From the NCBI GenBank assembly GCA_947458455.1, contig CANGYJ010000011.1, forward strand, positions 1 through 64,000: a DNA stretch of 64,000 nt, written 5' to 3'. Within the stretch, counting starts at the first letter, position 1, and every line of letters starts with the position of its first letter. Both the position numbers and the translations under genes were made by a program. This DNA is from Verrucomicrobiaceae bacterium (GTDB lineage: Bacteria > Verrucomicrobiota > Verrucomicrobiia > Verrucomicrobiales > Verrucomicrobiaceae). The notes beneath the pieces were generated by a model. It had not been told where the DNA came from. It made no database searches and saw only the letters and a list, made by a program, of their open reading frames with translations. Of this stretch, positions 9,788 to 48,617 are shown in pieces.

Positions 9788-10193
9788 CCATTCCTCCGCT
9801 CGCCTGTCGGCTCGCTCCGCAATGGGCTGTGGTGCTCGCTGACCGCTCGCGGCTGTTTTTATGATGACTGCGCACCAGCCAAGGGTGGCGGTCGCAGTGA
9901 CGAAATTGGGCTGGGCTGCTTAAAATCGCTCTACCCCGCAGCCAGCCTCATTCTCCGAGACAAACGGCTATCCACTATGGTATAATGTTCCCATTCCTCC
10001 GCTCGCCTGTCGGCTCGCTCCGCAATGGGCTGTGGTGCTCGCTGACCGCTCGCGGCTGTTTTTATGATGACTGCGCACCGGCCAAGGGTGGCGGTCGCAG
10101 TGACGAAATTGGGCTGGGCTGCTTAAAATCGCTCTACCCCGCAGCCAGCCTCATTCTCCGAGACAAACGGCTATCCACTATGGTATAATGTTC
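9788..10193. repeat. 203-bp tandem direct repeat (two copies) before the relaxase gene; candidate transfer origin and promoter
   Basis: Copy one spans 9788-9990 and copy two 9991-10193. I find one difference, CACCAGCC against CACCGGCC. Each copy ends with CTATGGTATAATGTTC, which holds a TATAAT box, so the relaxase gene has a doubled promoter. Each copy also contains the arms CTACCCCGCAGCC and GGCTGGGCTGC, and GCGGTCGCAGTGACG next to CGCTGACCGCTCGCGGC, giving local inverted repeats of the kind seen at nick regions. Transfer origins of MobA/L relaxases often lie directly upstream of the relaxase gene. The near-identity of the copies implies a recent duplication or active homogenisation. Confidence 0.85.
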
Positions 10194-26752: not shown

Positions 26753-29700
26753 TCACTCCAAGGCAAAATCCTTCCCGCGCACGTCACGGAACTGTGGACT
26801 ACGGACGATCAAATCGACGAGCGTGCCAAAGCGAAGGTCGGTTTTCATCATCTGCTCGATCAGCGGCTTGTCGGAGAGCTGAACGCTGCGGCCAAGGGCG
26901 TAGCCAAGGAGCTTGCGGCAGAACTGGCGGGTGAAGTCATCGCGGCGCTTGGTGAGCAGGTAGTCGCGGAGATCGCTGAGGCCATCGACGGCGGTTCCAT
27001 CGGGCAAGGTGGTCTTCGTGTCGGCTTGGCGGGCGCGGCCGATGGCGTCGAAGGCTTCGAGAGCGAAACCGTAAGGGTCGATGCGTTTGTGGCAGCCCAT
27101 GCAGTTCTCATCGCGGCTGTGTCGCTCGATGAGTTGACGCTCGGTGAGATCTGCGGGGGCTTCCTCCGGCAAGAGGGGCACGCCTTTCGGCGGGATGGGC
27201 AGCTTCTCGCCGAGGATGACCTCCGTCAGCCAAGTGCCGCGTAGGATGGCGCTGTTCCGCGAGGCTCCGGCTTGCTTGGCGAGCGTCGCCGCAAAGCCAA
27301 GGATGCCGCCACGGCCTTGGGCTTGGAGATCGTCTATGCGATGCCAATCAGACGGGGAGTTTGACAAGAGAATGGGGACAGGAGAATTTTTCAGAGGATT
27401 CTTTTGTCCCCATTCTTTTGTCGATAATCCGTAATGCTTCGCGAGTTCGGCATTCAAGAAGGTGTGATCGGCATCCAGCAGGCTCAAAATGCTGCGGTTG
27501 TGTTGGATGAGGTCGATGAAGAAGCGGGTGACTTCTTCCTGCATGTCGTCGCGGAGGTCGAGGAAGGTGGGGAAGTGGCGCTCACTCTTTTCGTCGAGCG
27601 TGGCAACATCGCGGACGTGGAGGTATTGGCAGCCGAACTCGGTGGCGAGGCGTCGCACTTTGTCGCTCTTGAGCATGCGTTGGGCTTGGCTGGGGATGTC
27701 TTCGAGCCTTGCGGAACGCAGTTCGGCATCGGGTGCAGAGGACCAGAGGAAATAGCTGAGGCGTGTGGCGAGTTCTTGCTGGTTCACGGGGCCGGTTTTG
27801 GCAGGTGCTTTCTCGCCGCGATACAAGAATGCGGGCGAGGTGAGCACACGCACGAGCATGAGGCGCGGCGGGAAGGCTTTCATCGCGGTGATTTCCTTTT
27901 CGCTAAGCGGATGACGCCATGCCTGAGCGGCGAAGTCGATCACGGCGGCTTTTTGCGGCTCGATGGCGGTTTTTTGCTGCTCTTTGAAATCGGCAGCGGC
28001 TTTGAGGATCGGCTGGCGCATCGGCTCGAAGGCGCTGGGCTTCGCATCCTGCGTGGCGAACTGGAAAAGCTGCTCAAAGACATCCACCTGCTTCAGCGGA
28101 GCCTCGCTGACGAAAAGCAATTCATCCCACAAGTGGTCGAGTTCGCTCGATTCGGCCTCGGAGAGCATCAAACGGCGCAAAGGTTCGTCCTCGCGATGAA
28201 ACAGCGTCAACGTGACCACCTCGTCCACCGGCACGACCTTGGTGTAACAGAGCGCAATGGGGAAAAGAGCACGGAAGTCGTCGAAAGCAGCCTCAAAGCG
28301 TGCGCGGGGCTCGCTAGCGTCATTTACGAGGATCGGAGCGCTGTGCTGCGTGACGAGGTTGTTGTCGCTCCACTGGCCGCTTTTCTGAGCGGACTCCGAT
28401 TTTCCCGCGACGAGGGTGGTGGCGGCCCGTGGTTTCTCAGTGAGCACCTGCATTTGCACGCTGCCGCTGGTTTTGGAGGCTAGCCTGCCGGTGACGATGA
28501 ACTCGGTGCCATTCGCGAGCGCGGCGGGGATTTGGACTTCGAGAATGGAAGGAGCGGATTTAGGCAGGAGAATGGAGGCAAGAGAATGTGCAGAAGGATT
28601 CTTTTGTCCCCATTCTTTTGCCTTTGAAAACGCATGAATGAAGGGGCGCAGTAGTGCGGAGTTTAGCGGAAAATCCTTCTCCAAAAACTGCCGCACCTTC
28701 GCTGCCAGCTCGGGAGAAGGCTTCTTCCGCCACTCGGCGATGGGCGCTGGCACATCCGGCGCGGCTTCGAGAGTCGCAGGTTGGCTGAGGAAGTGCCACG
28801 CGCCGTGTGGATTGCCTTTCAGGATGTTTGGCGAGACATCCTTCGCGAGATCCCAGGTCGTCTGGACGTCGTTGAGGGTGAGATTGATAGCGGTGAGGTC
28901 GCAGACGTGGTTGCCGTCACGTGGGCCGATGACGAGGGCGACGACTTGGCCGGGCTCGACGCGCACGTTTTCAAACGGACCCATTGGCAAAACGGTCGCG
29001 CCTTTGGTCACGCCGCTGGCGAGCACCTCACTGGTGTGGCCGCGACGAACTTCGAGTGTCCAAGTGACGCCATTTCCACATTCGGGATGCGCGTCCGAGA
29101 CATCGCCGTGAATGCGGAGCGTGCCTGCTCTCTCACAACGCCAAGCGATGACCGAGGCACGAGTCGGCGAAGGATGCGTGGCGATGCTGTTCGCCTTCAT
29201 CACACCCGGCGTGCGCACGGAGGTGTCGGAGGAGTTCGCCATCACGCTCAGTGCCTGCTCGCCCTGCCAGCCTTGGATGAAGGCGTAATTTGGCGTGCCC
29301 TTCATTTTCTTGGTTAGCAGCGGTTCGAGCTTGGTGGTGCCGTAGCCGAGGTATTCGCGCCATGTGGTCATCAAAGCGGGTTCAGCATCGTCTCTGCCGC
29401 TTGCGATGGCATTGAGGCACTTCTCCGTGTTCGCGATGATCTTGGCGCGTTGCGCTTCGAGATACTTCACGAGCGCTGGAAGGTCGCTGATGGGCAGATC
29501 GGGTCTGCCTGGGGCGATGAGGCGCGGATTTTCCCAGATTACCTCATCTCCCGCGCTGCCATCGCCTGCATCGGTGGTGGTGAGGTAGAGCGTGACATCG
29601 CGATCTGCGGTGAGTTTGACGCGCATCTCGTGTTTCGGCACGAGTGGCGTGACTGGCTCCTGCCAGGCCTTCGGGCCGTTTTCTTTGCCGATGTGGCCGA

Positions 29701-37670: not shown

Positions 37671-39017
37671 TCAATATTTCGGGAATATGGTCGGGCTCGG
37701 GAAGCGCTCTTCGAGGCTGTCGCTGAGGTATTCTTCGCGGGGGACTTGGGCTTGGGGCCAGCTCGCGGGGCGGACGCGGACGATGCGGGTGGGGCGGATG
37801 CCTTCGATGATGAGATCGGTCTCGAAGCGGATCTGGATGCCGCTGCTGCCGAGCGGAGCTTCACCGGGGAGTTTGATGACATCTTGGATGGGGCCTTTGG
37901 AGGCCATGTGCGCGGGGCCGTAGGCGCCGTGGGTGTGCTTCAAGGTGTCGGCGACTGGATTCATGAGGGCGGGGCTGCCTTTGGTGAAGTCGGCGTAGAG
38001 CGATGGGTCCATGCCGCCAAAGAGGGTCGCGGTGATGGTGGCGCGGCCGAACTTGCCGTATTCGACGGCGTCGATCCATGCGGCCATCCAGCGGCTGCGG
38101 ATGAAGGCTTTGTGCGTTTCGGTTTGGTTGAGGGCGGCGCGTTGAGTCGCGGTTTCATTCAGCCAGATGTCGGAGATGTGAAAGCGGGTGAAGATGCCAT
38201 CGGCGGTGGGTTTCCAGGTGATGCCGAGGAGGACGGACTGGCCGTTGAGCCCTTTTTTTCCTTCCGCAGGCCATGCGCCTTCAGCGATGAGTTCCTCGAC
38301 GCTGAGGCATTCGCGACCACGCCAGATGCGGGTGGCGGCATCGAAGGTCATCGGTTCCTCGGTGGCCTTGGCGTCGTCGCCTTTCTTTGGCTGGCGGGTG
38401 GCGATGATCATGCCGGCGTGGCTTTTGATCTGCACTTCCTTGAGCTTCCAGGTCAATCCGAGGCGCTGGCAGTGGCTGGGTTCGTCTTCGAGGAGAAGCA
38501 CATGATTCTCGGCGGGAAAGATGCCTGCGCCGCGATTGTGATTGGCGTCCTGTTTGCCGCTATCGATCGGCAAAACCGGCACAGAAGAGGTCTTCGGGTC
38601 GGGCGGGAGGAAGGCGTGGACGTGCATCACGGTGCCGAGCGGAATGTCCCGCAGATCGGCGGGTGCGCCGTGATAACGAACGATGCCATACGGCAGCATG
38701 GCGAAGGGATGCGGATCATTGCGGAAGAACATGCCCGATCCCTGCACGCGGATGCTGCCACGACGGTTCGCGTGATCGACGAAGATGAGTTCGCCACGGT
38801 AGGTGTGTGCTTTTTCCAACGGGGGAAACTTTCCGGCTTCGGGGCGGAAGGGCGCATCCTCGGCGATGGCAACGGTCGTGAGCAACGAAAGGCCAAGGCA
38901 TAGTTGGTAAAAGATTTGGGGTAAAAGATTCGGGAAGCCGTCTTTATTTTTTATCCAGAATCTTTTACCAGCTTCAGTGGCGGGGCCGGGGGATGAGTGG
39001 AGTGTTGGAGTGATCAT
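37671..39017 (-). CDS. secreted protein of unknown family, paralogue 1
   Basis: A 448-residue exported protein (ATG 39017). It shares most of its sequence with the next gene, for example RPEAG(K/R)FPPLEKAH, RGEL(I/V)FVDHANRRGS, FAMLPYGIVR and HGAPADLRDIPLG, so the two are tandem duplicates. The N-terminal part is beta-rich; the last 90 residues include FETDLIIEGIRPTRIVRVRP. I do not recognise the family. Against the paralogue, the signal-peptide region holds an inserted palindrome (38906-38970) coding for FWIKNKDGFPNLLPQIFYQ. It runs toward the GntR gene, 95 bp away, and may belong to the same neighbourhood function. Confidence 0.75.
   Translation of the reverse strand: MITPTLHSSPGPATEAGKRFWIKNKDGFPNLLPQIFYQLCLGLSLLTTVAIAEDAPFRPEAGKFPPLEKAHTYRGELIFVDHANRRGSIRVQGSGMFFRNDPHPFAMLPYGIVRYHGAPADLRDIPLGTVMHVHAFLPPDPKTSSVPVLPIDSGKQDANHNRGAGIFPAENHVLLLEDEPSHCQRLGLTWKLKEVQIKSHAGMIIATRQPKKGDDAKATEEPMTFDAATRIWRGRECLSVEELIAEGAWPAEGKKGLNGQSVLLGITWKPTADGIFTRFHISDIWLNETATQRAALNQTETHKAFIRSRWMAAWIDAVEYGKFGRATITATLFGGMDPSLYADFTKGSPALMNPVADTLKHTHGAYGPAHMASKGPIQDVIKLPGEAPLGSSGIQIRFETDLIIEGIRPTRIVRVRPASWPQAQVPREEYLSDSLEERFPSPTIFPKY
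38906..38970. repeat. second palindrome family, inside a signal-peptide coding region
   Basis: GGTAAAAGATTC (38920-38931) pairs with GAATCTTTTACC (38958-38969), 26 bp apart, and a third arm, GGTAAAAGATTT, sits at 38906. It keeps the reading frame of the 37671-39017 gene. The paralogue lacks it. It differs in sequence from the GGGGAC-type palindromes. Confidence 0.8.
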
Positions 39018-39065: not shown

Positions 39066-40355
39066 TCAGTAGTTCGGGAAGATGTCGGGAGTGGGGAATC
39101 GTTCGTCGATGCTGCCTTGGCCGATGTATTCCTCGCGGGGCAGGTGGAGATCGGGCCAGCTTGTGGGGCGGATTTTGACGATGCGGGTGGGGCGCATGCC
39201 TTCGGTGATGAGGTCGGTCTCGAAACGAATCTGGATGCCGCTGCTGCCGAGAGGGACGTTTCCGGGTGTCTTGATGACGTCGAGAAGTTTGCCGCGTGCG
39301 GCCATTTGCGTAGGGCCGGCGGTGCCGCCTTCGGTGTGCTTTAGGGTGTTCTCGACGCCGTTCATCAGGGCGGCGGTGCCGGGTTTGAAATCGGCGTAGA
39401 GGGAAGCATCCATGCCGCCGAACAAGGTCGCGGTGATGGTGGCGCGGCCGAACTTGCCATACTCGACGGCATCAATCCATGCAGGCAGCCAACGAGTACG
39501 CACGAAGGCTTTGTGGGTTTCGATTTGATGGTGCGCGGCGTTTTGCATCGCTTCGTCATCGAGCCAGATGTCGGAGACGTGGAAGCGGGTGAACACACCG
39601 CCGGGCGTCGGCTTCCAGGTGAGGCCGAGCAGGACGGACTGGCCGTTGAGAGCCTTTTTTCCTTCGGCGGGCCAGATGCCTTCGGTGATCAGGTGCTCGA
39701 TGCGAAGATGCTCGCGACCACGCCAGACGCAGGTGGCGGCATCGAAGGTGAGCGTTTCTTCGGAGGCTTTGCTGTTTCCGCCTTGCTTCGGTTCGCGAGT
39801 CGCGGTGATGGTTCCTTCGTGGTTTTTGATCTCCACTTCCTGGAGCTTCCAGGTCAAGCCCTCGCGCAGGCAGTGGCTGGGTTCGTCTTCGAGAAGTAAA
39901 GCGTGGTTCTCAGCCGGTGCGGTGCCGAGGCCTCCGTGGTTGGTCTTGGTGCGGTTGTTCACCGGCAACACCGGCACGGCGGAGGTCTTTGGGTCGGGCG
40001 GAAGATAAGCGCGGACATGCAGCAGGGCGCCGAGCGGGATGTCGCGCAGATCCGCCGGTGCACCGTGATGCCTGACGATACCGTAAGGCAGCATGGCAAA
40101 CGGACTCGGCGACGTGAAACGGAAAATGCCCTTGGATTCAATGCGAAGGCTGCCACGGCGGTTAGCGTGATCGACAAAGACAAGTTCGCCACGGTAGGCG
40201 TGCGCTTTTTCCAACGGCGGGAACCTGCCGGCTTCGGGACGGAAGACGTTCTCCTCAGCGCGTGCGGACGCTGCGAACAATAAAAGTCCCAAGCACAGCA
40301 CCGTGATCCAACGGAGCGATGGATTGGTGGAGTGCTGGAGTGTTGGGTGAGACAT
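39066..40355 (-). CDS. secreted protein of unknown family, paralogue 2
   Basis: A 429-residue exported protein from ATG 40355, with a clean signal (LRWITVLCLGLLLFAASARA). Close duplicate of the neighbour at 37671. Shared blocks include LLEDEPSHC, GLTWKLQEVEIK, WPAEGKKALNGQSVLLG and KFGRATITATLFGGMDAS. No domain or catalytic motif recognised; cysteines are few, so it is not a cytochrome. The first residues (SHPTLQHSTNPS) are coded by an octamer repeat array, so this N terminus is a recent acquisition. Spacing to the neighbour is 48 bp; both probably come from one transcript or from a duplicated unit. Confidence 0.75.
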   Translation of the reverse strand: MSHPTLQHSTNPSLRWITVLCLGLLLFAASARAEENVFRPEAGRFPPLEKAHAYRGELVFVDHANRRGSLRIESKGIFRFTSPSPFAMLPYGIVRHHGAPADLRDIPLGALLHVRAYLPPDPKTSAVPVLPVNNRTKTNHGGLGTAPAENHALLLEDEPSHCLREGLTWKLQEVEIKNHEGTITATREPKQGGNSKASEETLTFDAATCVWRGREHLRIEHLITEGIWPAEGKKALNGQSVLLGLTWKPTPGGVFTRFHVSDIWLDDEAMQNAAHHQIETHKAFVRTRWLPAWIDAVEYGKFGRATITATLFGGMDASLYADFKPGTAALMNGVENTLKHTEGGTAGPTQMAARGKLLDVIKTPGNVPLGSSGIQIRFETDLITEGMRPTRIVKIRPTSWPDLHLPREEYIGQGSIDERFPTPDIFPNY

Positions 40356-42055: not shown

Positions 42056-43429
42056 TCAGATCGCGATCACCTTGTTGCTGTCGCCAAACGTGTCCGTCTC
42101 CACGCCCATGCGCTGGGCCATGAGGAGGAGGAGGTTGCTCATGTGGGCGTCGGAGTTCACGGGGCGGCTGCAGACTAGGTAATGGGCGGTGGTGAGGGAG
42201 CCGTCGGGGCCGAAGGTGTAGCCTTGGAAGTCTTTGGCGGATTTGTTGAAGTCGAGGTGCGTGCCGTGCTTCAGGCCGAGGTCGGAGCCGCCTGCGAGCA
42301 CGAGCGGGAGATTCGCATTGCCATGGCTGTGGCCGTAGGACATGCCGCTGCCGAAGAGAGCCATGGTGGAGCCGAGGAGGGGCTTGCCGCTGAGGTCTTT
42401 GGTTTCGGAGAGGCGGGTGAGGAAGTAGCCGAACTGCTCGATGGCGAAGGTGTCGTAGTTGGTGAGCTTTTCCATGTAGCCGGCATCGCCGCCGTGGTGA
42501 CTGAGCTGATGACGCGACTCGGTGATGCCGATCTCGGGGATGGAGATGGCATCGCCCTCGCCGCCGAGGCTGAAGGTGGCCACACGGGTCACATCGGTCT
42601 GAAAGGCCAGAACCATGAGGTCATAGACGGCGCGGAAATAATCACCCGCCTTGGTGGCGGCGATGTCGCGGCTTGTGCGGTTGCGGTCGGCCTCGGAGAT
42701 GGAGGGCAGCGGTGTGTCGAGCCAGGCATCGGCCCGCCGTGTGCGGATCTCGGCTTCGCGGACGGAGGTGAGGTATTGCTCCATGCGGCCTTTGTCCTCG
42801 GAGCCCATCTTTTTCTCGAGCTGACGCACTTCCGCGAGGTTCGCATCGAGCACGCTGCCTTTGCGGCGCAAGGCTCGACGTTGGGCTGCTTTGCCGCCTT
42901 TCGGTTCCTCGAAGAGCGAGGCGAAAATCTCGCTGCAACGACGCATCGCAGGCAATCGCACGCCATCGGCGGTCCAAGCGAGCGAATCCTGCGTGATGGC
43001 CACTTCCATCGAAGGATAACGCGTGTGCGGCGCGGTGACCTCGGCCATCTTTTGGTCCACCGAGATCGTGTTGCGATCCGAAGGCCCCAACTTGCCACCC
43101 GTGAGCCAAACGGAGATGCAGTTGTGATGATGACTCAGCGCTCCCGGATGATGCAACCCGCTGATCGGCGTGATGACCTCGCGATGCTTCTCCAGCGGCT
43201 TCAACGAGCGAGAGAACTCATAGCCCCGCCCCTCTTTGGTGATCTGGTAGTTCAGCGAGTGAACACCATTGGCGAGGTAGATGAACGCACTGCGCTTCGG
43301 CGTGGCGGTGGCCTTTTCGGCAGCGCGGAGCGGCACCATGCACTCGAGCATCGGCAATGAAATGAAACTGCCCAGCGCCTTGAGCGCGTGGCGGCGATTG
43401 AGGAGCCAGGATTGGGTTTGGATGTTCAT
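42056..43429 (-). CDS. DUF1552 secreted protein, second copy
   Basis: A 457-residue DUF1552 protein from ATG 43429. The N terminus [20 protein letters not shown] is a twin-arginine-type signal. Family landmarks: [41 protein letters not shown] in pieces, [20 protein letters not shown], and [20 protein letters not shown]. Its natural partner, a DUF1592-type protein, is at 44071-46515, but here a four-helix-bundle gene and octamer arrays stand between the two. It has no ribosome site visible ahead of its start. Second pair of this kind in the window. Confidence 0.87.
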
Positions 43430-43444
43430 GGAGAGGGGGGCAGT

Positions 43445-43539
43445 GGAGTGATGGAGAAGTGGAGTGATGGAGAAGTGGAGTGATGGGGAGCTGAGCGAAG
43501 AGATGTCATTGTTCCAACACTCCATTACTCCACCGCTCC
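43445..43539. repeat. two facing octamer arrays able to form a long hairpin
   Basis: GGAGTGAT and GGAGAAGT alternate at 43445-43484 (five units, then GGGGAGCT); the opposite orientation follows as ATTGTTCC, AACACTCC, ATTACTCC, ACCGCTCC at 43508-43539. The period is 8 bp throughout. The two arrays face each other across a 15-bp gap, so RNA or single-stranded DNA could fold. The stop codon of the four-helix gene (43525) lies in the second array. Confidence 0.85.
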
Positions 43540-44016
43540 ATCCAGCAGGTTGCGGAGATCGTGGGCGATGGCGGGGTCGGTTCCGTATTCGATGGGGTCT
43601 TCGCGAACGATGAGTGTTTCGGTCCAGTCGTTGGTGTTGCGTTTGTGTTCGAGGGATTCGACTAGTTTGAGGAGACGGTTCTCCAAACGAAAAATGAGCG
43701 TGTCGAGCTGTTCAAAGGTTGAAGGTTCTATCTGGCCGTTGCGATAGTAGGCGACGAAACCCGAGAGTGTTTCACCAAGCGATCCCAGTGCGATGTTCAG
43801 ATGTTGGAGATACTCGCGAATGGTACGGCGGCAGTAGCCTTCGGCGATGTTGCGGTGCACCGAATCACTGGAGGCCAACGACTGCGAGGCAAGCTTCTTC
43901 AGTTCAAATGGCCAATCCCGAACCGCAGTCCATGTGAGTCCATACAACTCGATAGCATCCTGCCAGACCAGCAACTGCTGGTATCCGCGGTTCTTATTTC
44001 GTCGTTCGGCACTCAT
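43525..44016 (-). CDS. four-helix-bundle protein (S23/IVP-like)
   Basis: A 163-residue all-helical protein. The pattern [60 protein letters not shown] and [20 protein letters not shown] is that of the 23S-rRNA intervening-sequence protein family (TIGR02436; also related to Avd of diversity-generating retroelements). No other DGR part is near. These proteins are thought to bind nucleic acid. The gene lies between the DUF1552 and DUF1592 genes of a usual pair, with octamer arrays on both sides (44022-44061 ahead, 43508-43539 after). This suggests a mobile cassette. Confidence 0.87.
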
Positions 44017-44021
44017 TGGTC

Positions 44022-44061
44022 ATTCTTCCATTACTCCAAAACTCCACTACTCCATCACTCC
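44022..44061. repeat. five-unit octamer array upstream of the four-helix-bundle gene
   Basis: ATTCTTCC, ATTACTCC, AAAACTCC, ACTACTCC and ATCACTCC run from 44022 to 44061 with exact 8-bp period. On the gene strand they read GGAGTNNT, the same orientation as the array after the gene (43508-43539), so the gene is bounded by direct repeats. Confidence 0.85.
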
Positions 44062-44070
44062 CGGATTGCT

Positions 44071-46515
44071 TCATCGCTTCCTCATCAGCTCCGACATCGC
44101 TACCGCACGCACGATGTCCTTCACGCGGTAACCATTCTTATTCGCTTCGGCGGCGATGGCTTGGAGATCATCTTGGTCGTCGAAGGCGAGGGCGCGGCGG
44201 AGGGCGTAGGTGCAGAGGTGGTCGATGAAGGCGCGGGCGAGCTTGTCGCGGTCTTCGAGGAGACGTTGTTTGAACTCAGTGGCGTCTTTGAAGGCGCGAC
44301 CGTCGGGCATCAGGCCGGAGGAATCGATGACGGGGTCGCTGCCGACTCCTGCGGGCACTTTCTCGTGGGTGCGCCATTGGCCAACGGCGTCGTAGTTGTC
44401 CCAGGCGAGGCCGAGGGGGTCGATCTTCGCGTGGCAAGCGGCGCAGTTGGCGTCTTCGCGGTGGGCCTCGATCTTTTGGCGCAGCGTGGCTTTGGGGCTT
44501 TGTGGCGTCGGGGGCTCGATGGCGGGCACATTCGCGGGCGGTGGAGGCGGTGGCTTGCCGAGCACGACCTCGCTGAGCCACACGCCGCGATGCACGGGAC
44601 GATGCCGCGTGCCATCGGAAGTCAGGCCGAGCACTGCGCCCATCGTGAGCAAACCGCCGCGACGATTCTCAGGCCTCAGCGACACACGCTGAAAGCCGTC
44701 CGACTTTGGCTCGGGCAGGCCGTAGAAGTCGCAGAGCCGCGCATTGGCGATGGTCCAGTCGGATTCGACGAAGCCATCGATGGGCATGTTTTTGCTAAAC
44801 AACTCGCGGAAGAACTCCACCGGCTCGTTGCGCATGCTTTCCTCCAGCCAAGCGTCATAGCTGGGGTAGAGCTTTTTGTCCGGCGGGAACATGCCCACGC
44901 GATGCAGTTGCAGCCACTGCCGCGCGAAGTCGTCGATGAAGCGGCTCGCTTTGCTGTCCGCGAGCATGCGATCCACCTCTTTCTTCAGGCCCTCACCATT
45001 GAGCGTGCTGCTTTTCGCCGCGGCAAAGAGCGCCTTATCCGGCATGGAGCTCCACAGGAAATACGAGAGCCGCGAGGCGAGTTCCGAGTCGGTGAGACGC
45101 TCGCGAGCCACCGTGTCGCCCTCGACGAGGTAGATGAAGTGCCGCGAGGTCATCACGCCCTGCAAAGCGACTCGATACGCATCCACCAGTTTCTCGCCCG
45201 CCTCGCGCTCGGTGCGGTAGGATTGCAAATACTGCTCCAGCTCCTCCTTTTTCACCGGCCGACGCCAAGCCCGTTCCGCAAAGCGTTGCAGATGCTCCGC
45301 GACCACTTCGGGCGTCGCATCATCCGGCGGCACGAGGCCCACGCGGTGTGCTTTTTCCGCCTCCGACACCAGCGGGCCTTCCCACTCGATCCAATCGAGC
45401 AGCACCGTCGAGAAGACGCCATTGCCCTTGTCATCAAACATCTGCGGCGCGTTCGGGTTTAAGAGCAGCGTCTCGCTGCTATGCGTGAAAATATAGCCGC
45501 TGCGGCTGCCGAGCGCATTGCGGAAGGCCGCGCCTTGTCGGCGATCCACGACGTCCGTGGCCACGACGCAGAACTCCAGCGTCATCGGCATCTCCAGGAA
45601 GACCTCAAACTCATACACTTGCGGCTTGTCCTCCGGTGCGGTGAGATCGAACTCGATGAGTCCATCCACCGTTTCCTCGCCCGTCTTCTTGCCGATGCTC
45701 AGGTGCGCAGGCTGCCCACCCAGTGGACGGATGCCACTGGCCTGAATGCGCACTTTGTAGAGTCCACTGTGCTCCGGTCCCGTCTTGCCGAACCAATTGG
45801 TCGAGAGCGCGTTTTGCACCGTGCCGGGGAAAAGAAGATAACGCAGCGGCCGCTTGATACCGAAGCGATCCAGCGCCGCCTGCTGCGCCTTTCCGTCGCC
45901 GTAGCGTAGATCCACCGCCGTCTTCCGCACCTTGCGAGCCTCCCCCGCTTTCGTGGGGAACGCACGATCCAGCACCAGCTCCGCCGCGCGGTAATAGCGA
46001 TCCACATGCGAAGGCGAGAGCGACAGCTCCGAACCGATGCGCTCAAAGCCATGCCACAGCGTGTCTTCATTCAGCTCGCCCGGTTTCGCCGGATCATAGC
46101 GCACGCCGAGCAGGTCATAGACCGTGTTTTGATACTCCTTCCGGCTCAGCCGGTAATGCGAAACCGCCGGTCTCGCCGCCATCCGCGCCGCGCGACCTTC
46201 TTTGATGCGTGCATCGAGACTCGTCACAAACGCCGCGATCTCCGCCTGCGACGGCTGTTTCTCCTTCTTCGGCGGCATCTCACCCGAATTCACCTGTTCC
46301 ATCATCTCCGCCCAATGATGCGTGTCTGCCCCCAGCTTAAAATCCCGCGAGAGCTGGTCGATCCGCAAATCGCCCTTCTCCTTCTCCGGCCCATGGCAGC
46401 GGAGGCAGTGCGTCTCCAGAAAGGCATCAAAGGGTTCTGCCGCGTGAACGGCACTGGCCAGGACTAAACAGGCGAGAAGCAGACAGGAGCGGGTGAAGAA
46501 TCGACGGTGAGGCAT
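44071..46515 (-). CDS. DUF1587/1592/1588/1585 cytochrome-like secreted protein
   Basis: An 814-residue member of the planctomycete-type family, signal [14 protein letters not shown]. The haem-like motif is [13 protein letters not shown], then DUF1587-like [20 protein letters not shown]1592-like [15 protein letters not shown] and [16 protein letters not shown]1588-like [19 protein letters not shown], and [20 protein letters not shown] with [15 protein letters not shown] (DUF1585). Likely a periplasmic redox protein. Its paired DUF1552 gene is at 42056. Lacks the two insertions of the 1291-residue relative. Spacing to the four-helix gene is 54 bp. Confidence 0.87.
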
Positions 46516-48077: not shown

Positions 48078-48166
48078 GGCCCGCAGACTACGCCGACGGC
48101 TTCACGAGCCTTTCTCCCTTTTGAGTGCCTCCAGGCCCGCTGAACCCTCATTCCAAGAAGGGAATC

Positions 48167-48296
48167 GCCGCAAAAGAACGCAGAGACCGCAAAGAGAGGG
48201 GGAGATCGAGGCTGCATGCCGACGGATGCATTTGGCAGATGAGTCTGGTATCTTCTCTAAGGCTTTGATTTTGCGTTCTTTGCGTTCTTTTGCGGC
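48167..48296. repeat. inverted repeat in the 540-bp gap before the DUF1501 gene
   Basis: Left arm GCCGCAAAAGAACGCAGAGA (48167 onward) and right arm TGCGTTCTTTTGCGGC (ending 48296) pair over about 28 bp with mismatches, enclosing 70 bp. Similar 'AAAGAACGCAGA' palindromes are common between genes in soil bacteria of this type, as I recall. The rest of 48078-48571 shows no coding region I trust. Confidence 0.65.
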
Positions 48297-48617
48297 TGTT
48301 CATTCCCCGAATGCCTGATGCAGGGATGGCGGAACTGAGAATGGCAAAGGGCCGAGCCTCAAAGCCTTTCCTCCATTCTGACCCATTCCTCCCTTTTCAG
48401 TTCCTCCATTCGCTTTGAGCTCCAGGCCGTTGCAAAGCCTCATTTTGGTTGCCCAGCAACGGCCTAGGAGGGTAAAACGACACCCATGAACACGATGGCC
48501 CGTACTTTTCCGACAAAATCGTTGGCGATAAAGCCGCTGACAAACCTCACGATCTGTTAACCATCTGAAGTGTTAGCCGCCGCTCGCACATCCTGAACCA
48601 ATCAATTTACACCACCC

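Follow-up and report, generated by a model that had tools for sequence, protein, structure and literature searches.

Inverted arrays of short tandem repeats around S23-family genes point to a minimal mobile element in bacteria

How did a small S23-family gene edged with tandem octamers come to lie between a DUF1592 and a DUF1552 gene, two neighbours that normally adjoin? The question is raised by a stretch of 64,000 nucleotides (the window) from a contig of a Verrucomicrobiaceae bacterium, for which an earlier note had proposed a mobile cassette. Solved structures of S23 proteins, which are also encoded in the intervening sequences (IVS) of 23S rRNA, were deposited as function-unassigned (2gsc, 2rld), and the parts of the literature examined assign the proteins no role. 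The evidence assembled here from the window, related genomes and plasmids makes the family look like a tiny, largely overlooked kind of mobile DNA present in several bacterial phyla.

The S23 gene of the window and its arrays

Profile searches place the window ORF in the S23 family (TIGR02436, E=1.8e-20; PF05635, E=1.1e-17), and the Pfam and TIGRFAM matches to the gene and to both its neighbours bear out that it splits a DUF1552/DUF1592 pair (Table 1). The element is thus located between protein genes and not inside an rRNA gene. The profile matches of the ORF were to S23/PRK12275-type models only; a catalytic transposase domain was absent, and no recombinase, nuclease or reverse transcriptase domain was found in the protein. 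The AlphaFold model (mean pLDDT 79.9) superimposes on the Xanthomonas S23 structure 2gsc (E=2e-4, TM 0.90 by target), on 2rld (TM up to 0.82 by target) and on the Avd chains 4dwl and 8ub7 (TM about 0.8 by target, with weak Foldseek E values of 0.03-0.6). Seven comparisons of S23 genes gave dN/dS values of 0.07-0.13. This is purifying selection, hence the protein matters.

On the gene strand the element consists of a GGAG array, the ORF, a second GGAG array with the stop codon inside it, and a facing CTCC array. On the + strand the scan reads the outermost 3' array as GGAG and the other two as CTCC. The period is 8 bp. With up to three mismatches allowed, CTCCANNACTCCANNACTCC matched 18 times in the window, whereas 100 shuffles averaged 0.56 matches, so the arrays are beyond chance. 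With a minimum length of 24 nt and a maximum spacing of 900 bp, eight inverted repeats were found in the 64 kb, and the longest of them, 35 nt, is the pair 43445-43479/44027-44061 formed by the two ends of the element. The facing pair at the 3' end of the gene forms a hairpin with a folding z of -4.9; Rfam returned nothing at the gathering threshold between 40000 and 48000. The earlier description of octamers on both flanks in an 8-bp period, of a facing array that allows a hairpin and of a stop codon within an array was therefore accurate.

The longer DUF1552 ORF, which extends to 43525, runs through the octamer array. Array DNA at 43430-43525 and 40313-40348 is translated as probably spurious peptides in over-long ORFs, an annotation hazard. 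A coding role of the arrays was considered and dropped, since the peptides that the arrays encode at the ends of ORFs resemble artefacts of annotation. Elsewhere in the window, at 9788-10193, a 203-bp unit is present as a tandem duplicate with 99% matches.

Table 1. Positions and basis of the features (window coordinates unless a plasmid locus is named)
Feature	Position	Strand	Basis or remark
Whole S23 element: 5' G-rich array, S23 ORF, 3' arrays	43441..44065	-	Array scan; longest inverted repeat listed in window
S23-family four-helix-bundle gene, 163 aa	43525..44016	-	TIGR02436 and PF05635 above cut-off
5' arm, array of five GGAGTNNT octamers before S23 start	44026..44065	-	Array scan; pairs with 43441-43488
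Inner 3' array, oriented like 5' arm, holds S23 stop codon	43512..43543	-	Array scan; found too in G032 (L071)
Outer 3' arm, facing array of six octamers	43441..43488	+	Hairpin with 43512-43543; inverted end relative to 44026-44065
DUF1587/1592/1588/1585 gene, upstream of S23 element	44071..46515	-	Pfam
DUF1552 gene (PF07586), downstream of S23 element	42056..43429	-	Pfam on longer ORF; probable start 43429, from relatives
Lone octamer array, no adjoining S23 gene	40313..40348	-	Pattern matching
Gene-less hairpin of other unit, GGTAAAAGATT	38902..38973	.	Inverted-repeat search; by eye, motif of G062 DUF-junction hairpin
Gene-less hairpin, CCGCAAAAGAACGC...	48162..48301	.	Inverted-repeat search; by eye, arm motif of GxxExxY gene L278
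Gene-less hairpin, GACAAGAGAATGGGGACAGGAGAAT	27363..27422	.	Inverted-repeat search
S23 gene in cas operon, plasmid locus L231	1495-1851
S23 gene in cas operon, plasmid locus L232	1498-1857
S23 gene in cas operon, plasmid locus L235	1480-1848

Inverted arms and their units at S23 genes

The octamer pattern, with at most one mismatch, has 264 matches in the 5.35 Mb genome of the window (G000), a count that includes overlaps and so stands for fewer arrays; the reversed pattern has none. In arrays picked by the consensus CTCCANNA, whose six fixed positions are pre-selected by the search, C or T predominates at the two free positions (83 units, from 400 kb and the window). G000 has a second window-type gene, 81% identical, with octamer arrays on both sides and with neighbours that by eye are an SDR-like and a GntR-like gene. 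Six of the ten S23 genes of G000 pass the inverted-arm threshold described below; the C8 paralogue has an arm score of 9, yet direct scanning shows its arrays. A search of 48 genus genomes, G000 included, gave close window-type relatives (73-90% over the best match) in five further genomes. In G032 and G060 the gene occupies the same junction as in the window, within the same array-bounded unit; in G006 it is in seemingly another DUF1592/DUF1552 pair, as judged by eye, and in G001 and G062 it is next to a GntR-like gene at contig ends. One further relative (41%), in G067, has a different octamer, GGATNNNT, in an identical inverted layout. Homologues of the window protein in genome records show inverted repeats scoring at least 14 in 11 of 12 assessable loci and a best period of 8 in all 12, and the set reaches as far as one Bacteroidota MAG. 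The set began as 18 loci, five of them too short and one without the gene, and three of the 12 (G032, G060, G006) are already counted above. The contigs of G062 and G001 (L073, L074, L105, L106) break off within the S23 gene at similar positions, which would fit a gene that is repeated there.

Each S23 gene was scored for inverted similarity between its two flanks, 230 bp on the upstream side and about 350 bp on the downstream side. The sample of 129 loci (56 genomes and further genus genomes) yielded 131 hits, 117 of them unique and 111 with enough flank; the PF05635 loci are the best matches plus 60 further places in rank order, which under-samples weak S23 genes. At a score of at least 14, inverted arms flank 87 of the 111 usable unique genes of the order, leaving 24 without arms. 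Among the controls, cross-paired flanks reach this score in 4/110, far flanks (about 700 bp away) in 3/106 and the direct orientation in 17/111. The excess holds at a score of at least 12 (98 genes; 5 cross-paired, 7 far, 23 direct) and at least 18 (63 genes; 2, 1 and 13). When the proteins are clustered at 50% identity, 24 of 28 clusters have at least one armed member and 23 have arms in at least half of their members, while flanks paired across clusters give arms in 0-1%.

The tandem arrays at S23 genes have periods of 7 (26 upstream, 38 downstream), 8 (9 and 6) and 10 bp (10 and 16). Period 6 reaches the threshold in one gene per side, and periods 5, 9 and 11-13 in none. The earlier note had suggested a check for octamer arrays at other S23 genes. 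Octamers as such did not generalize, since other clades have 7-mers or 10-mers, but these stand in the same inverted layout, and inverted arrays proved to be the common feature. G predominates over C in the upstream arm (36% G, 12% C), and the downstream arm is rich in C. Among the matches listed, every facing pair without a gene that was inspected by eye also has the G-rich member first (8/8 in one of three pattern scans), as have three further pairs. The neighbouring genes on both sides are in the sense direction at 63 of 107 S23 genes and both antisense at 9, with directions from a longest-ORF rule in place of gene calls and four of the 111 left out for short flanks.

Other families were given a rough test, with fixed positions for the DUF1552 and Y1_Tnp controls: inverted flanks were found at 5/30 DUF1552 loci and 2/12 Y1_Tnp matches. 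A similarly rough test of the GxxExxY genes (TIGR04256/PF13366) of G000, L275-L278 among them, showed inverted repeats around 4 of 8 loci. This suggests that GxxExxY is a second gene family with the same inverted-arm habit, possibly a sister group of elements.

Unit length is inherited along with the S23 protein clade. On a tree of 111 S23 proteins, the lengths 7, 8 and 10 require five changes where the minimum is two; shuffled labels require 30.9 on average, and none of 200 shuffles was as low. The labels cover 89 rows, 18 without a clear period and four of period 6, 9 or 11 having been left out. The tree is built on few columns and contains many near-copies, which inflate the clustering.

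Gene-less facing arrays of the S23-arm unit are scattered over the genome. The six genomes with a window-type S23 gene have more octamer matches than the other 41 (one-sided P=0.002). For the 10-mer, the 20 genomes with a sampled S23 gene of the 10-mer cluster likewise exceed the remaining 27 (P=9e-5); the group of 20 was assigned by hand, 17 by the period-10 label and three from the same protein cluster. Because the S23 arms are themselves among the matches, a fixed number was subtracted per genome. With 10 matches subtracted P becomes 0.010 for the octamer and 0.002 for the 10-mer, and with 20 it becomes 0.095 and 0.018; the octamer test thus weakens once the arms' own matches are taken off. 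The 10-mer has no match in G000 and some matches in 15 of the 27 genomes outside its group. G029 has 154 octamer matches, yet its S23 matches are weak (best E 3e-4), so the protein is not required for arrays to persist.

Filled and empty sites

The DUF1592-DUF1552 junction was compared in 31 genomes. It is empty (21-50 bp) in 15. A window-type S23 gene occupies it in 3 genomes and another S23 gene, whose heptamers read AAGAACC, in 2; a GxxExxY-type ORF accompanied by inverted hairpins is present in 5 (G022, G066, G011, G034, G018), gene-less hairpins in 2 and 672 bp of other sequence in 1; in the remaining 3 no DUF1592 end lies upstream of DUF1552. One GxxExxY and one S23 member were checked by search and the other family labels given by sequence likeness. 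The element that fills this intergenic slot varies from species to species. The junction states need 14 changes on a DUF1552 tree of 31 tips, against a shuffled mean of 15.2 with 34 of 200 shuffles as low, which means that the junction turns over with little dependence on descent. At 2 of the 15 empty junctions there are lone octamer arrays; a looser threshold gives 6/15, with 2/15 for the reversed sequence. These arrays may be relics or pre-existing targets. At one junction in genus g2 (rows G048, G046, G051, G042, G054) three genomes have an S23 element. G046 has a frameshifted copy (L290) with intact arms where its relatives have an intact copy, and G042 has a diverged S23 element with different arms. 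No empty g2 site was found, and G035 gave no match.

Plasmids of other phyla provided filled and empty sites. All 15 plasmid S23 genes fetched, hand-chosen among the best 30 of 33 matching records, have inverted arms with a best period of 7 or 8. They come from Cyanobacteriota, Gemmatimonadota, Pseudomonadota and Bacteroidota. Across several phyla, then, S23 loci regularly include inverted arms. One S23 query against phages gave no match.

Sites that are otherwise nearly identical occur both with and without an S23 element and its arms. Locus L229 on a Trichormus plasmid (3336 bp) and its counterparts L240-L242 (2908, 2908 and 2905 bp; 97-98% identity) are distinguished by a single clean insertion of about 423 bp that includes the arms, together with a duplication of 5 bp. 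At the empty site the sequence is AAGTAATTAACAAATAA, with no array, whereas in L229 the element stands between two copies of GTAAT. A fourth plasmid has a decayed S23 copy at the same point. Because the empty site is free of arrays, the arrays act like ends arriving with the element; that the arms belong to the S23 element is well supported. In a comparison of the Nostoc plasmids L239 and L245, which have the gene, with L246 and L247, which do not, the insertion is again at one point. TTCT is found on both sides in L239, but its right-hand copy also fits the heptamer of the arm and no duplication is claimed. L230, L231 and L234 show insertion without a readable duplication (none in L230 and L234; L231 is too diverged), and the plasmid compared with L235 carries a different insert. 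A target duplication is therefore clear in one of six filled/empty comparisons, that of L229; relatives at the window junction are too diverged for such a reading.

The comparison of sites with and without the gene, both at the junction and on plasmids, came out in favour of the proposed mobile cassette. The note had left open whether the octamers are target or end sequences. The plasmid site speaks for ends; the data did not establish the octamers as targets. An octamer array as a required insertion target was dropped because the empty plasmid site has none.

S23 genes also lie inside cas operons of three cyanobacterial plasmids, once in the order cas10-S23-cmr3 and twice as cas6-S23-cas4.

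A proposed mobile element and its alternatives

Taken together, the data make it very probable that the S23 unit is a minimal mobile element consisting of an array, an S23 ORF and an inverted array. Such an element would be about 420-630 bp long, with a G-rich array of short tandem units, the S23 ORF and a complementary C-rich array in inverted orientation. It would sit between co-directional genes and be read from host promoters; the excess of sense over antisense neighbours fits expression by read-through. S23 may bind the repeated unit and bring the two ends, or their hairpins, together. Avd binds nucleic acid. For S23, nucleic-acid binding is suggested by the five-subunit ring of 2gsc (PMC4990558, in the passages available) together with the Avd-like fold, and we infer that the protein recognizes the arms. 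Some nuclease or host repair enzyme would then make the insertion. Gene-less hairpins could be derivatives moved in trans, or relics, and slippage would resize the arrays.

One alternative is that another enzyme, be it an IS transposase, a reverse transcriptase or a transposase of the Y1/HUH kind, moves the element in trans, with S23 as no more than an accessory or a passenger. The absence of any catalytic domain match in S23 and the 12 Y1_Tnp matches in G000 would agree with this, and the Avd likeness suggests an accessory role. However, none of the 12 Y1_Tnp loci has an octamer array of at least three units within about 1.5 kb, and a RAYT partner was rejected for that reason. A reverse transcriptase partner was rejected as well, for lack of RVT_1 in G000 (96% complete). 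Unit length, moreover, tracks the S23 clade. On these Y1_Tnp, RVT_1 and unit-length results, movement by an outside enzyme is rather doubtful. A second possibility is that the arms are kept at the RNA level, for a long transcript stem around the S23 ORF as in the RNase III-cut IVS of 23S rRNA, any mobility being RNA-based. The strong sense orientation relative to neighbours speaks for this, and the Coxiella IVS with its S23 ORF has both a terminal stem and upstream heptamer repeats (PMC4990558, same passages). Selection for an RNA stem should favour G.U mismatches, but the 87 arm pairs have 69 of these on the sense strand against 105 A.C, where composition alone predicts about equal numbers, and the test for a sense-RNA stem was thus negative. 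RVT_1 has no match in G000 or G005, both rich in arrays; 24 of 47 genus genomes have one. Both results disfavour a retro-mechanism, and we judge the RNA-level explanation unlikely.

If the arrays were independent repeats, like the STRRs of cyanobacteria, S23 could spread by homologous recombination between them. Arrays are indeed dispersed genome-wide without a gene, some empty junctions hold lone arrays, and G029 is rich in arrays without a strong S23 match. Against this, the arms arrive with the gene at an array-free plasmid site, far and cross-paired flanks rarely match, and S23 clades keep different unit lengths; the idea is improbable. Still less probable is that S23 is a cellular gene with regulatory or terminator sequences around it and a scattered distribution due to gene loss. 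Purifying selection, the position of the arms directly around the ORF and the hairpin are compatible with a cellular gene, but clean presence and absence on near-identical plasmids, positions inside cas operons, different S23 elements at one junction and gene-less hairpins of the same unit speak against it.

The minimal mobile element has its closest known counterpart in the rRNA IVS. In the passages of PMC4990558 available, the Coxiella burnetii IVS is 428 nt long; it has an S23 ORF, a terminal stem of 28 bp and, immediately before the ORF, tandem GACAGAT heptamers whose copy number varies among strains; the distribution of S23-IVS is described as sporadic and their mobility as a conjecture. 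The layout of an S23 ORF between terminal inverted repeats is shared, and the size is close to the roughly 423 bp of the Trichormus insertion. IVS interrupt rRNA genes, and RNase III removes them from the rRNA, whereas the elements described here lie between protein genes, and unlike what those passages describe for IVS they have arrays in both arms, gene-less counterparts and a clade-linked unit length. The kinship with S23 genes in rRNA that the note had pointed out holds up, and S23-encoding IVS probably belong to this wider element family. The clade-specific pairing of protein and end repeat, together with the filled and empty sites, makes the IVS-mobility conjecture (PMC4990558) testable.

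Other systems share single features. Foldback transposons are eukaryotic and much longer. Those of Drosophila (FB, Galileo) have internally repetitive terminal inverted repeats as here, a structural likeness only; Galileo is grouped with the P-elements by its transposase, and the S23 element has no such enzyme. Of the features of an insertion sequence, the S23 element has inverted ends, with a clear duplication (GTAAT) in one of six filled/empty comparisons and an ambiguous TTCT in another; no known catalytic transposase domain was found in its ORF. REP/REPIN sequences with RAYT genes are dispersed palindromic intergenic repeats, mostly gene-less, that flank one small gene family. The S23 elements likewise combine dispersed gene-less intergenic repeats with one small gene family flanked by them. 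Unlike in REPIN/RAYT, the gene is S23 and not a Y1/HUH transposase, and the arms are short tandem arrays of clade-specific period; a Y1 transposase gene flanked by the same repeat, as in RAYT, was not seen for the octamers at the Y1_Tnp matches of G000. Avd of diversity-generating retroelements has a fold like that of the S23 model, and the passages available of PMC10053308 state the likeness of PF05635 to Avd; unlike those retroelements, G000 has no RVT_1.

We also advance, tentatively, a broader proposal that may well prove too inclusive: S23 would be the sole dedicated protein of a new class of mobile element, a recombinase-less five-membered ring that recognizes units of 7, 8 or 10 bp repeated in tandem at the inverted ends and guides insertion with the help of host enzymes, the class taking in the rRNA IVS, many orphan heptamer and octamer arrays and the GxxExxY-nuclease sister group. 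If this is true, these are among the smallest gene-carrying mobile elements known. In the titles, abstracts and passages of the open-access literature searched, no paper was found that ties S23 genes to inverted short tandem arrays.

S23 elements could explain orphan short tandem repeat families in Verrucomicrobiota, Cyanobacteriota and others. STRRs of cyanobacteria are short tandem heptamer arrays in intergenic positions. The TAACTGA heptamer arrays of Beggiatoaceae are intergenic and often just upstream of start codons (PMC4679880), and both kinds resemble S23 arrays in being intergenic tandem heptamers; the part of that TAACTGA text available does not contain the terms S23, 23S or four helix. 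These heptamer arrays may be relics of S23 elements. Mobility could likewise account for the S23 genes that turn up inside cas operons, and these in turn may explain why the family appears in CRISPR-association surveys, one of which names '23S rRNA IVP' in a figure legend (PMC10910872).
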